DNA from: Sphingomonadales bacterium
Lineage (GTDB): Bacteria > Pseudomonadota > Alphaproteobacteria > Sphingomonadales > Sphingomonadaceae
DNA: 60,529 nucleotides
Reading direction: 5' to 3'
Assembly (NCBI GenBank): GCA_027483465.1
Contig: JAIXUQ010000033.1
Span: 1-60,529 of the forward strand
Of the stretch, positions 35,358 through 38,866 are shown one piece after another (positions within the stretch are counted from its first letter, which is position 1; each line of letters begins with the position of its first letter). The position numbers were made by a program, and so were the translations under genes. Under the pieces are notes generated by a model that saw only the letters and a program-made list of their open reading frames with translations, had not been told where the DNA came from and ran no database searches.

Positions 35358-36016
35358 TCGCCCAGCATGCCGCGCACGAAGCTGGCCAGCCCCAACTGGC
35401 GTTTGCGGCGCAGGCGTTCGGCCTTCAGGATGGCGCGGATTTCGTTCAGGCAGGTTTCGGCATCGTCGTTGACGAGGATATAATCATATTCGCCCCAATG
35501 GCTGATCTCGTCGCGGGCGCGGGCCATGCGGCCGGCAATCACCTCGGGATGATCGGTGCCACGGCTGTTCAGCCGGCGTTCCAGTTCCGCCAGCGTGGGC
35601 GGCAGGATGAACACCCGCACCAGATCAGAGGCCGCATCCGTCTGCTGCAATTGCTGGGTGCCCTGCCAGTCAATGTCGAACAGCACATCGCGCCCGGCGG
35701 CCAGCGCCGCCTCCACCGGGCTGCGCGGCGTGCCATAGCGGTTGCCAAACACCGTCGCCCATTCCAGCAGGGCATTTTCGTCCACCATCGACTGGAAGCC
35801 GTCGGGGCTGACGAAATAATAATCCACCCCGTCCACCTCGCCGGGGCGCGGCGGCCGAGTGGTGGCCGAAACGCTCATGGTGATCTCGTTGTCTTCGGCC
35901 ATCAGCGCGCGCGACAGCGTGGTCTTGCCGGCGCCCGAGGGGGATGACAGCACGAACATCAGCCCGCGGCGGTGCGGACCGCGGGCCGGCGCATCACGGC
36001 GGGCAAATTGCGTCAC
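35354..36016 (-). CDS. gmk: Guanylate kinase
   Basis: A 220-residue cytoplasmic enzyme that phosphorylates GMP to GDP. The P-loop SSPSGAGKTT is at 24-33, the GMP-binding SATTRPPRPGEVDGVDYYF follows, and the lid region is RLNSRGTDHPEVI. The N-terminal 19 residues before MFVLSS are a basic extension also seen in relatives. The start is GTG at 36016, overlapping the sspB stop as GTGA; an ATG at 35959 would still give a complete core. It is followed by the DUF4893 lipoprotein. Confidence 0.95.
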   Translation of the reverse strand: MTQFARRDAPARGPHRRGLMFVLSSPSGAGKTTLSRALMAEDNEITMSVSATTRPPRPGEVDGVDYYFVSPDGFQSMVDENALLEWATVFGNRYGTPRSPVEAALAAGRDVLFDIDWQGTQQLQQTDAASDLVRVFILPPTLAELERRLNSRGTDHPEVIAGRMARARDEISHWGEYDYILVNDDAETCLNEIRAILKAERLRRKRQLGLASFVRGMLGE

Positions 36017-36501
36017 TTGCGGCGGAACCGATCGAGCGTGACGACATTGCTGCCGCTCTCGCCGCTGTCGGATTCGGGTGCCGGCGGCGGGGCTTCGGGT
36101 TCGGGCGGCTGATCGGGCGGGGTCTCGCCATCCTTGGGCGCGAATTGCAGGGCGAAATTCACCGCCGGGTCCACAAAGCCGACAATCGCATCATAGGGGA
36201 TGACCAGCGTGGCCGGCATCTGGTTGAACGACAGGCCGATGGAGAAATGATCATCGGCCACCACCAGATCCCAGTAACGGTGCTGGATGACGATGGTCAT
36301 CTCGTCCGGGTAACGTTCCTTCAGGTGTGCCGGGATCGACACGCCGGGGGCGCGGGTGCGGAAGGCGATATAGAAATGATGCCCACCGGGCAGGCCGCCA
36401 TCGGCCTGGATGCGCGACAGCACGCGGCTGACCACGCCGCGCAGCGCATCCTGGACGATATCGTCATAGGGGATCAGGCTGTCTGGGGTGGAGTCGGTCA
36501 C
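36013..36501 (-). CDS. sspB: SspB family ClpXP protease adaptor (alpha type)
   Basis: A 162-residue protein matching the alphaproteobacterial SspB: IPYDDIVQDALRGVVSRVL at the N-terminus, HHFYIAFRTRAPGVSIP, then DEMTIVIQHRYWDLVV and FNQMPATLVIPYDAIVGFVDP. SspB tethers ssrA-tagged proteins to ClpXP. The body is followed by a Pro/Glu-rich flexible linker (about 118-150) and a short C-terminal VVTLDRFRRK, the ClpX-binding tail. The start is GTG at 36501. The ssrA gene, which supplies the tag this adaptor recognises, is only about 0.9 kb away. Confidence 0.92.
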   Translation of the reverse strand: MTDSTPDSLIPYDDIVQDALRGVVSRVLSRIQADGGLPGGHHFYIAFRTRAPGVSIPAHLKERYPDEMTIVIQHRYWDLVVADDHFSIGLSFNQMPATLVIPYDAIVGFVDPAVNFALQFAPKDGETPPDQPPEPEAPPPAPESDSGESGSNVVTLDRFRRK

Positions 36502-36639
36502 GGGGCTGAGCCTTGGCTGATGGGCGCTTCCGATTGGCGCGGGGCGCGGGCGAGGTCAAGCGCAATGGCGGTCGCGGGCGCGGCCGTTGGCGTGCGTCGC
36601 ACCGCGGCCGGCGCGCGTAATTGCCGGCGGAGGACGGGG

Positions 36640-37155
36640 ATGCGGCGGACATTCGCAACAGCGGCACTGATGCTCGGCCTTTCGGGCTGTGTTGCCACCG
36701 GCCGGCTGCCGCAGCCCGCGGCAGGGGCGCCGCCGCTCGATCCCATCGCCTTCTTTGCCGGCCGCACCCTGGGCGAGGGCCTTCTGGTGATCGCCACCCG
36801 CCGGCCGCGACCCGTCACCGTGGCCGGCAGCGGCCGGATCGGGGCCGATGGCGCGATCACGCTGGATCAGGTGGTGACCATGGCCGGTGCCGCGCCCGCG
36901 CAGCGGCAATGGACCCTGCGCCACGATGGCGCCGGCGGCTTCAGCGGCGCATTGACCGATGCGACCGGGCCGGTCAGCGGGCGCATCGAAGCCGGCCGGC
37001 TGCACCTTCGCTTCACCCTGAAGGGCGGCCTGAAGGCCGAGCAATTCCTGGCCCCCGATGCCGATGGCCGCACCGTGCGCAACGTGATGATCCTGCGCAA
37101 ATGGGGCCTGCCGGTGGCCCGGCTGGACGAGGTGATCACGCGGGTGGCGGAGTGA
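36640..37155 (+). CDS. DUF3833-like lipoprotein
   Basis: A 171-residue protein with a lipobox (LGLSGC, Cys17). The mature part resembles DUF3833: DPIAFFAGRTLGEGLL, a GSGRIGADGAITLDQVV strand pair, RQWTLRHDGAGGFSG and NVMILRKWGLPVARLDE near the C-terminus. The role is unknown; envelope localisation is expected. The ATG at 36640 has GGAGGACGG upstream; longer frames run back through sspB. Its stop codon lies directly before the first unit of the hairpin array at 37151, and the ssrA transcript comes from the opposite side. Confidence 0.75.
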   Translation: MRRTFATAALMLGLSGCVATGRLPQPAAGAPPLDPIAFFAGRTLGEGLLVIATRRPRPVTVAGSGRIGADGAITLDQVVTMAGAAPAQRQWTLRHDGAGGFSGALTDATGPVSGRIEAGRLHLRFTLKGGLKAEQFLAPDADGRTVRNVMILRKWGLPVARLDEVITRVAE

Positions 37156-37357
37156 GGGGGTTCTGTTGCCCGGCCCCCCAGAGTCGCACGTTCTTCCGGG
37201 AGGGCCGGATGCGGCCCATGAAGTGAGGGAGGTTCTGTTGCCCGGCCCTCCCAGCCGGTGTGCGTTTTCCGGGGGGCCGTGGGCGCGCAAATCGGTGAGG
37301 GGGTTCTGTTGCCCGGCCCCCCTCGGGCCGCTGGAATCCACTTCTGTTGCCCGGCGT
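37151..37357. repeat. Tandem array of four hairpins with a constant core and covarying stems
   Basis: The plus-strand core TTCTGTTGCCCGGC begins at 37161, 37233, 37304 and 37342. On the minus strand the core is GCCGGGCAACAGAA and each copy is closed by a different stem: CCAC/GTGG, GAGGGGG/CCCCCTC, GGGAGG/CCTCCC and GGGGG/CCCCC. The first three plus-strand units are about 71-72 bp apart, and the fourth is 38 bp on. Unit tails (37198-37208 GGGAGGGCCGG, and a GGGGGGCCG further on) are the exact reverse complement of the next unit head. The array fills the gap between the lipoprotein stop and the ssrA 3' end. No U-run follows the stems. Confidence 0.85.
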
Positions 37358-37379
37358 GGCCCGTGCCGCGGTCTCTTGG

Positions 37380-37638
37380 GGTAATTTCGTCCGTGAGGAC
37401 TCAATTACGCCGCGATCGCGAATGCCTCGTTGTCGTTGGCATTTGTGGGTTTTGAACGGTTTAACGGCTCATTCAGGCCGGGCAAAAACACCGTCTTTGA
37501 ACACACGTCGATCCTGGTTCGGCCCCAGACATCCCCCGACAACGGGTTGATATATGGTGGAGCCGCCGGGTACTGCCCCCGGGTCCGCTGCGTCTATTCC
37601 ACGGCATCATTTATCGCCATAGCCGGCACGCCGGCACC
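37380..37638 (-). ncRNA. ssrA: Two-piece (circularly permuted) tmRNA
   Basis: Read on the minus strand, the acceptor piece comes first and ends in the encoded CCA at 37557-37555 (GGCGGCTCCACCA), with a T-arm of CCGGG/CCCGG before it. After a 28-nt spacer the coding piece begins GGGGCCGAACCAGGATCGA at 37526. The acceptor stem pairs GGGGCCG with CGGCUCC and has the G3-U wobble that alanyl-tRNA synthetase reads. The tag frame follows at 37440-37405, its stop codon lying in a stem (GTAATT/AATTAC) closed by GTCC/GGAC. This order is the permuted form found in Alphaproteobacteria. End points are approximate to a few nucleotides. Confidence 0.92.
37405..37440 (-). other. tmRNA tag reading frame (ANDNEAFAIAA)
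   Basis: From the resume codon GCC the frame reads ANDNEAFAIAA and then TAA. With the alanine carried by tmRNA, the appended tag is AANDNEAFAIAA, similar to the Caulobacter tag and ending in Ala-Ala, the residues bound by ClpX. It is two residues shorter than the Caulobacter tag. The sequence just before GCC is ACAAAT. Confidence 0.88.
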
Positions 37639-37641
37639 CCT

Positions 37642-37670
37642 CATGTAGGGGCTGCGGGGCAAAAGCTCAA
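37642..37670 (-). promoter_or_regulatory. Putative ssrA promoter
   Basis: TTGAGC (37670-37665) and TACATG (37647-37642) are spaced by 17 nt, placing the transcript start a few bases before the acceptor piece near 37636. The spacing and position fit a housekeeping sigma-70 promoter. Confidence 0.6.
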
Positions 37671-37681
37671 TCCCCGGCGGA

Positions 37682-38866
37682 TCAGCCGCGGTTGGCGGCG
37701 ACCAGTTCGCGGTAGCGGCCGAGCACGGCGCCGTTGATGACATCCCAGTCAAAGGCCTGCGCCGCGGCCAGCCCGGCCTTGCCATGGGCGGCGCGCAGCG
37801 CCGGATCGGTGCAATAACGGCCCAGCGCGTCGGCATAGGCGGGAATGTCACCCGGGGTGACCAGCGCGCCGGTGGTGCCATCGCTGACCAGGCATTCATT
37901 GCCGCTGGCCCGTGCCGCCACCACCGGGATGCCGCTGGCCATCGCTTCGAGATTGATGTTGCCAAAGGTTTCGGTGGTCGATGGATTGAACAGCAGATCG
38001 GCGCTGGCATAGGCGCGCGCCAGATTGGTGCCATCCAGAAAGCCGGTGAAGATGGCATCGGGCACCTGCGCCTGAAAACGTTCGCGCGCGGGGCCATCGC
38101 CCACCACCAGCAGCCGGTGCGGAATGCCGCGCTGTTTCAACAGGTTCACCGCAGCGGCCACGGTATCGAGGCCCTTTTCCAGCACCAGCCGGCCCACAAA
38201 GCCGATCACCGCCTCGGTATCACCCAGCCCCAGGCTCCAGCGCCATTCCGGGCTGCGCCGGGCCGGGTTGAACCGGCCCTTGTCCACCCCGCGGCTCCAC
38301 ACCGCCGGCGGCGCGCTGATGATGCCGGATTGCTGCATCATCGCGCCAAAGCCGGCCGTGGTCACGAAAATCTCGTCAAGCCCGGCATAGAAACGCCGCA
38401 GCAGCGCCTCGAGGCCGGGGCGGGCAAAGCCCAGGCCATAATATTCGAGATAGGTTTCAAAGCGGGTGTGGATGGAGGCGACCACCGGCACGCCCAGCGC
38501 GCGTGCCAGCTTCTTGGCGGCATGGGCGGCCGGATCGGGGGCAGAGAGATGGATGATATCGGGAGCGAAGTCGCGGATGTCGCGCTTCAGGCGATCGGGC
38601 AGGCCCAGCGCCAGGCGATACTCGCCGCGCCCCGGAATGGCAAAGCTGGGCACCGAAACCAGGGTGCCGGCCGGTTCGAAGGCCGGCGTGTCGCTGGTGG
38701 GCGAATAGACCCGCACGTCACAGCCCTGCCGCTCAAGGAAGGCGACCAGCCGGTTCAGCGCCTGGTTGGCGCCATCGCGCACATAATTATAGTTGCCGGA
38801 AAACAGCGCCACCCGCAGCGGGCGCTCAGGTGCCCGCTGCGGGCTGGGTGCGATCGCGTCCGGCAT
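37682..38866 (-). CDS. Glycosyltransferase family 4-like protein
   Basis: A 394-residue GT-B glycosyltransferase. The N-terminal domain opens with RVALFSGNYNYVRDGANQAL, the usual nucleotide-diphospho-sugar enzyme entry, and DIIHLSAPD. The C-terminal domain has GFVGRLVLEKGLDT and the donor-binding TTETFGNINLEAMASG with the EX7E-type pattern. It resembles phosphatidylinositol mannosyltransferase-like and GDP-mannose-dependent enzymes of sphingomonads; acceptor unknown. The ATG at 38866 is chosen because conserved sequence starts soon after; a GTG at 38884 is the alternative, as the ribosome binding site is weak for both. Confidence 0.85.
   Translation of the reverse strand: MPDAIAPSPQRAPERPLRVALFSGNYNYVRDGANQALNRLVAFLERQGCDVRVYSPTSDTPAFEPAGTLVSVPSFAIPGRGEYRLALGLPDRLKRDIRDFAPDIIHLSAPDPAAHAAKKLARALGVPVVASIHTRFETYLEYYGLGFARPGLEALLRRFYAGLDEIFVTTAGFGAMMQQSGIISAPPAVWSRGVDKGRFNPARRSPEWRWSLGLGDTEAVIGFVGRLVLEKGLDTVAAAVNLLKQRGIPHRLLVVGDGPARERFQAQVPDAIFTGFLDGTNLARAYASADLLFNPSTTETFGNINLEAMASGIPVVAARASGNECLVSDGTTGALVTPGDIPAYADALGRYCTDPALRAAHGKAGLAAAQAFDWDVINGAVLGRYRELVAANRG

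Follow-up and report, generated by a model that had tools for sequence, protein, structure and literature searches.

A two-piece tmRNA gene of a sphingomonad with putative extra tandem copies of its terminal 3' module

We analysed a 60,529-nt stretch of DNA from a Sphingomonadales bacterium (the window) and found that an array of four hairpins with an identical loop core almost certainly represents the coding-piece 3' end of a permuted, two-piece tmRNA gene (ssrA) together with what follows it. Judged by sequence and comparison, two of these hairpins, named pk3 and pk4 in our own numbering, are ordinary tmRNA pseudoknots while the other two, modules C and D, are extra tandem copies of the terminal module (Table 1). 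As a whole, the array is best read as a tandem-duplicated 3'-end module of a two-piece tmRNA that forms, at most, a dispensable 3'-end barrier, a reading we consider reasonably probable. The first-pass annotation had placed the four hairpins beside ssrA and did not recognise an RNA family in them. Both points need to be revised, as the four hairpins make up the 3' end of ssrA itself: the copy at 37342 lies inside the match to Rfam family RF01849 (alpha_tmRNA) and the next copy corresponds to the pseudoknot that terminates this RNA.

Table 1. Features of the ssrA region, with positions in the window and strand.
Feature	Position	Strand	Description
sspB	36013-36501	-	PF04386, E 8.8e-44
DUF3833 gene, convergent	36640-37155	+	PF12915, E 3.3e-8; stop codon inside the module D repeat unit
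Extra module D	37152-37180	-	GGGGG hairpin, loop as in the other copies; crossing-stem partner absent nearby
C-rich tail after module C	37198-37208	-	Arm of inverted repeat I2
Extra module C	37223-37258	-	CCGGC-T-GGGAGG-GCCGG-GCAACAGAA-CCTCCC-TCAC; sequence permits a complete pseudoknot
C-rich tail after pk4	37268-37279	-	Arm of inverted repeat I1; complements the adjoining G-rich heads
pk4, second module	37297-37330	-	Coding-piece terminal pseudoknot CGGC-CC-GAGGGGG-GCCG-GGCAACAGAA-CCCCCTC; normal
pk3, first module	37338-37368	-	H-type pseudoknot CGGC-ACGGG-CCAC-GCCG-GGCAACAGAA-GTGG; inside the RF01849 match or at its edge
ssrA, permuted two-piece tmRNA gene	37333-37674	-	RF01849; extent of the Rfam match
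Tag reading frame and stop	37405-37440	-	ANDNEAFAIAA; ARAGORN, sequence
Acceptor piece 3' end	37555-37562	-	CTCCACCA; CCA-bearing, upstream of the coding piece (permuted order)

The 14-nt core GCCGGGCAACAGAA occurs four times without change on the minus strand (37161-37174, 37233-37246, 37304-37317 and 37342-37355), with core-to-core spacings of 38, 71 and 72 nt along the array. It is the sole 14-mer of the window with four occurrences inside 250 nt, and none of 100 windows simulated with a first-order Markov model contained a 14-mer four times within 250 nt. An exact, no-mismatch search found no further copy in the organism's own genome outside the array. The unchanged fourfold core described by the first-pass annotation was thereby confirmed, and the pairing flanks it listed (CCAC/GTGG, GAGGGGG/CCCCCTC, GGGAGG/CCTCCC and GGGGG/CCCCC) are all present. 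The same is true for the complementarity it saw between a unit tail and the head of a neighbouring unit, with 37198-37208 and 37242-37252 forming an exact 11-nt inverted repeat. The pk4 region and the module D region share 28 identical nucleotides (37295-37322 and 37152-37179). In module C the crossing stem CCGGC/GCCGG is present by sequence, and a sequence search for an adjacent crossing-stem partner of module D did not find one. A 282-codon open frame on the minus strand (36556-37404) spans the array antisense to the DUF3833 gene and gives no sign of being a real gene.

Assignment of the array to the end of the coding piece and the DNA that follows is based on the ARAGORN call and on the alignment of RF01849 over the first copy. 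RF01849 matches the window along its full-length model (1-355) with 219.9 bits against a gathering threshold of 50, and ARAGORN predicts a permuted tmRNA (tmRNA*) at 37314-37650 on the minus strand. The terminal part of the RF01849 consensus, with ACCuGGCAACAGAA, is aligned over the first copy (37342-37355). The Rfam match ends at 37333, the ARAGORN gene extends into the copy at 37304-37317, and covariance model R1 scores pk4 at 37293-37336 (E 6.9e-11). Among the matches listed for 37100-37700, from which four lower-scoring overlapping matches of the same clan are omitted, no tmRNA match was found for pk4, C or D; comparison with Rfam, to which the first-pass annotation had pointed, accounts for the first copy and leaves the other three beyond the match. 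Annotation of the permuted gene thus falls short at its end: the Rfam match does not reach the terminal module in the window, nor in relatives where both were located (e.g. G001, G009, G012 and G048). The organism's genome holds one tmRNA match. Measured from the presumed 5' end at 37526, the coding piece is 232 nt long to copy 2, 304 nt to copy 3 and 375 nt to copy 4. Blots detected a 204-nt piece labelled 3' end of tmRNA in S. meliloti (PMC2245857) and a coding piece of ~240 nt in Orientia (PMC7335160). Because 232 nt is near both lengths, the second copy is the likely normal end and the mature RNA would probably still end after the first terminal module, ~232 nt from the presumed 5' end.

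The terminal hairpin is presumably helix 11 of alphaproteobacterial tmRNA (pk4 as a single helix), an identification of our own. Covariation was evaluated for two crossing stems after aligning 48 of the 100 distinct terminal modules without gaps. These rows were chosen by a fixed 7-bp main stem, which favours the main stem; the crossing stem was not a selection criterion. Pairing was found in 99.6% of cells, with both-side changes at 10/11 pairs (7/7 in the main stem and 3/4 in the crossing stem), and shifting the partners by 1 to 3 columns lowered pairing to 48-55%. GCAACAGAA is invariant across the 48 rows, an invariance that is built in because the rows were found through this motif. When all 100 distinct modules are considered, 95 combine a main stem of no fewer than 5 bp with a full 4-bp crossing stem, the exceptions being G023, G032, L033, L034 and L157, compared with 41% complete crossing stems when the loop strand was taken from another module. 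The terminal module thus shows the hallmarks of an H-type pseudoknot, namely two covarying crossing stems and an adenine-rich third loop. Because the crossing stem covaries, our results indicate that the last helix of alphaproteobacterial tmRNA takes the form of a covarying pseudoknot, not of a single helix, in most sequences tested. A 2005 comparative study describes alphaproteobacterial pk4 as reduced to a single helix (PMC1168896); the difference here is the crossing stem, which is supported by covariation in most sequences.

The normal number of modules was established using tmRNA 3' regions from 60 relatives, 58 of which were readable. RF01849 matches were obtained in 95/98 genomes of the relatives set and 69/76 of the class set, and the loci examined were the 30 best-scoring ones of each (best 30 of 95 and best 30 of 69, respectively). 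At class level, one module follows the tag in 27/27 parsed loci among the best 30 of 69 matches (3 unparsed). Order-level loci (best 30) could be parsed in 29 cases, with one module in 22 and two in 7; L029, which is included in these counts, belongs to the window's own family. By eye, L020 (G060) has three modules. Within the window's family, at least two modules, ~38 nt apart, are present in 54/54 readable tmRNAs (21 from the genus, 33 others). pk3 is normal in this family and is seen in relatives.

Extra modules are distributed patchily. The sample of the window's genus comprised 24 genomes with 21 readable tmRNA 3' regions (G003 and G005 were cut and G015 was without match), 8 of which contain extra modules (G000, G001, G009, G010, G011, G012, G020 and G022) while extra copies are absent by pattern in the other 13. 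G009, by eye the nearest-looking relative, has a single extra copy that is altered. In the family, a second GCAACAGAA lies 62-92 nt further on in 31/249 genomes and 22/96 genera by exact pattern, and 31-61 nt further on in 8/249 genomes. Four of these eight are already among the 31 and two are unrelated (G176 and G236, dropped since the tmRNA tag is absent upstream). The union of patterns, including G012 and G297, amounts to about 33/249 family genomes, exact-pattern counts missing copies with a changed loop. Covariance-model search gave a match in 243/249 family genomes; copy numbers were taken from exact patterns because the strict filters of this search give mostly one match per genome. Searching related sphingomonads, as suggested by the first-pass annotation, revealed extra copies in relatives, and searches of the organism's own genome with the exact core and the array DNA gave none dispersed. 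The tag motif is found upstream in 33/35 of the loci L198-L232, with L198 and L201 as exceptions, and G260 is without a locus.

We also scanned a collection of genomes for pairs of exact cores separated by 45-75 nt, which yielded 39 stretches, 37 of them with the tmRNA tag upstream. L161 is tagless by the pattern used yet resembles a tmRNA end, the unrelated L171 (Bacteroidetes) was dropped and L185, from a record titled Bacillus, was treated as a mislabelled sphingomonad. Non-sphingomonad stretches with different units stem from records titled Holosporales (L161), Rickettsiales (L170) and Alphaproteobacteria (L168, L189). Because it is found in several orders with different units, multiplication of the module looks recurrent. 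The arrays are also unlikely to be an assembly artefact of one draft. Independent-looking tandem terminal modules, with units of ~36 to 106 nt, were observed in other alphaproteobacterial families or orders (L020, L161, L168 and L170). Among the 39 stretches, a separate type of ending, unlike that of sphingomonads, consists of a pseudoknot, a plain hairpin and a pseudoknot (L160, L167, L173, L178, L182, L186, L191-L193 and L197; by eye, ten records, four of them titled Geminicoccaceae).

Next to their position, the extra copies were characterised by their resemblance to the terminal copy of the same genome, using the first extra copy of each of 33 long-spacing arrays (60-100 nt) and permutations that ignore relatedness. 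Resemblance was 0.93 to the own terminal copy and 0.63 to those of other genomes for the 5-nt loop start (exact in 25/33), 0.81 and 0.60 for the 3' strand (exact in 14/33), and 0.41 and 0.36 for the 5' half (p 0.0006). This pattern is in keeping with a duplication that covered mainly the 3' half and was followed by homogenisation, or with selection for 3' halves still compatible with the terminal 5' half. Across 58 extra copies the own stem averages 4.1 bp, and by a loose test 7 of them could form a crossing stem; module C is among the few extra copies with both stems and module D has one. Spacings from the terminal to the first extra module range from 38 to 98 nt.

In the window's genus, 7/10 extra copies keep the loop, which is changed in three (one in G009, two in G010), and the extra-copy stem is down to 3 bp in G001, G020 and G022. 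Because of these changed loops and short stems, extra copies can evidently decay, and their sequences suggest weak constraint in this genus. The short-spacing class (38-46 nt) has a 5-bp stem with both-side changes at 4/5 pairs and 94.3% of cells paired in 14 rows; when four decayed rows are included (18 rows), 82.2% of cells are paired, still with 4/5 pairs. The covariation score was reached by 0/500 shuffles in both sets. Given these compensatory changes in the stem, selection acts or has acted on some extra copies. The first-pass claim that the structure is selected therefore stands for the terminal module and for short-spacing extra copies of other sphingomonads, both of which covary.

Spacers were inspected as well. 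The spacer is clearly repeated after the last copy in G010, G036, L216, L218 and L219, and 10/49 rows exceed all shuffles in a corresponding test, two being repeats of the same genomes and three marginal. A spacer motif resembling ACGGTCCTC, followed by a C run, recurs in arrays with ~95-nt units from a number of sphingomonad genera (L205-L227). The exact 15-mer GACGGTCCTCGCCCC is present in 8/249 genomes, 5 times at the array and 3 times at a single module-free place, never at both. An RNAalifold consensus of the 95-nt spacer from 24 units gave weak structure (-8.5 kcal/mol), and no structure is claimed.

According to the first-pass annotation, pairing of unit tails with neighbouring heads constitutes a second, mutually exclusive structure that also covaries. 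Pairing of the two C-rich tails with neighbouring heads is indeed the dominant feature when the array is folded for minimum energy (z -2.6; 3/200 shuffles as stable). Own-genome tails were compared with tails of other genomes by permutation among the 33 arrays. Pairing of the terminal head with the following tail was -21.4 kcal/mol for own and -22.0 kcal/mol for foreign tails (p = 0.91), and pairing of the extra head with the preceding tail gave the own genome no clear advantage (p = 0.17). In the window's genus alone, a small set (n 8), p was 0.15 and 0.56; this set is noisy because a control, in which the head was paired with the 5' portion of the spacer, reached p 0.046. As own tails do no better than foreign ones, we rejected a tail-head switch as a covarying second pairing. 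The impression gained from the window arises because the heads are rich in G and the tails in C, so that nearly any combination can pair.

Downstream of ssrA follow the convergent DUF3833 gene, sspB and a guanylate kinase gene, and a glycosyltransferase gene lies upstream. SspB is an adaptor for SsrA-tagged proteins, and its gene is located downstream of ssrA in the same direction (both minus strand). In several relatives of the genus, sspB is by eye the next gene, at most a few hundred nt past the tmRNA 3' end. The arrays of G020 and G022 have sspB directly downstream (by eye) and, because they adjoin sspB instead, the array appears to be independent of the DUF3833 gene. Regarding termination, no U tract follows modules C and D on the ssrA strand when read from the sequence, as the first-pass annotation had stated. 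A terminator scan for loops of 3-8 nt, which is blind to 14-nt loops, returned one weak plus-strand site with 0.8 expected by chance. T content is 0.445 after terminal modules without arrays (n 97), 0.358 after terminal modules in arrays (n 50) and 0.382 after the last copy (n 50). As it is no higher after the last copy than after the terminal copy, a terminator role is unsupported.

We propose that the extra copies quite probably arose by tandem duplication with homogenisation, in that local duplication would generate them and homogenisation with the terminal copy would keep them alike. A function as 3'-end barrier is a more tentative suggestion. Stable 3' structure slows exonucleases, and because the permuted gene would give the coding piece a free 3' end, the terminal pseudoknot would be the first structure met by an exonuclease such as RNase R. 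A barrier role would follow from these two points combined with a report on Caulobacter that RNase R degrades two-piece tmRNA and that the two-part form may offer the enzyme an entry point (PMC12320835). Modules C and D, if active, would be dispensable backup barriers to exonuclease or read-through. We regard it as just as likely that both are functionless, neutral leftovers of tandem duplication whose similarity is maintained through recombination with the terminal pseudoknot. Their patchy presence, their decay in the genus, the extra 3' halves that follow the own terminal copy far more than the 5' halves do and the spacer trailing the last copy in some arrays, as tandem duplication leaves it, are all consistent with this, while the compensatory changes that retain the 5-bp stem of the short-spacing class and the occurrence of arrays with different units in several orders argue against it. 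The opposite extreme, in which the mature tmRNA includes the extra pseudoknots, with a coding piece of 304 or 375 instead of 232 nt and a regrowing pseudoknot chain, is unlikely: although module C could fold as a full pseudoknot, the window's family already has at least two modules against one in other parsed class members, and one-chain cyanobacterial tmRNAs possess tandem pk4a and pk4b (PMC1168896), most extra copies are missing the crossing stem and copies decay in relatives.

Unlikely, too, is an arrangement of one 5' half with several exchangeable 3' halves, where distal 3' halves would pair with the terminal 5' half and thereby create alternative 3' ends. Many long-spacing extra copies do consist of a full-length 3' strand and a short 5' strand, and the terminal 5' strand pairs better with the own extra 3' strand than with foreign ones (-13.9 and -11.6 kcal/mol, p 0.0002, 33 arrays); however, homogenisation yields the same pattern, the test is uncorrected for relatedness and in the window's genus the effect lacks significance (n 8, p 0.74). 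A role as terminator or roadblock separating ssrA from the convergent DUF3833 gene would be in line with an array that abuts the convergent stop codon and with inverted repeats that permit hairpins on both strands, but appears quite improbable given the missing U tract after C and D and the arrays without a convergent gene in G020 and G022 (by eye). Scars of elements integrated into the ssrA 3' end, which would leave displaced 3' fragments, could account for repeats that often comprise mainly the 3' half of the gene end, the part that is repeated at attachment sites. tmRNA genes are common integration sites (PMC11915505). Yet the short distance from terminal to first extra module, a spacer motif common to several genera and the similar downstream gene of G038 and G039, one with and one without an array (by eye), make such scars very improbable. 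The first-pass annotation had also considered a remnant of a mobile palindromic repeat of the REP or MITE kind. A near-palindromic stretch does surround module C in the minimum-energy fold, but this origin is hardly credible, since all four exact cores lie in this array, array DNA has no match in the organism's genome outside the array better than E 0.1, and the spacer 15-mer of other arrays never occurs both at an array and elsewhere in one genome.

In conclusion, our analysis indicates that tandem duplication alters how many 3' pseudoknots a two-piece tmRNA has, apparently on more than one occasion and even between species of one genus. This offers a natural copy-number series for probing the role of tmRNA pseudoknots and the protection of the free 3' end. 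A bolder proposal, unlikely though conceivable, would be that two-piece tmRNAs regrow a pseudoknot chain by repeated duplication of the terminal module, with interchangeable 3' halves serving as alternative 3' ends that tune stability or ribosome handling. Pseudoknots of tmRNA are known while variable tandem multiplication of the terminal module is apparently new; a literature search of incomplete coverage, with key papers missing, found no title or abstract on variable or tandem 3' pseudoknots in alphaproteobacterial tmRNA. The closest known system is the two-piece alphaproteobacterial tmRNA of RF01849, which agrees with the window in gene, position, strand and terminal module (loop GGCAACAGAA, stem and CAC). 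Its consensus differs in having one terminal module, unpaired, whereas the window has four, three of them beyond the Rfam match. A further likeness exists to cyanobacterial tmRNA, where the terminal pseudoknot occurs as two in tandem, pk4a and pk4b (PMC1168896). That system belongs to another lineage and gene form, and in contrast to it the copy number described here varies within a genus and the extra copies are mostly partial.
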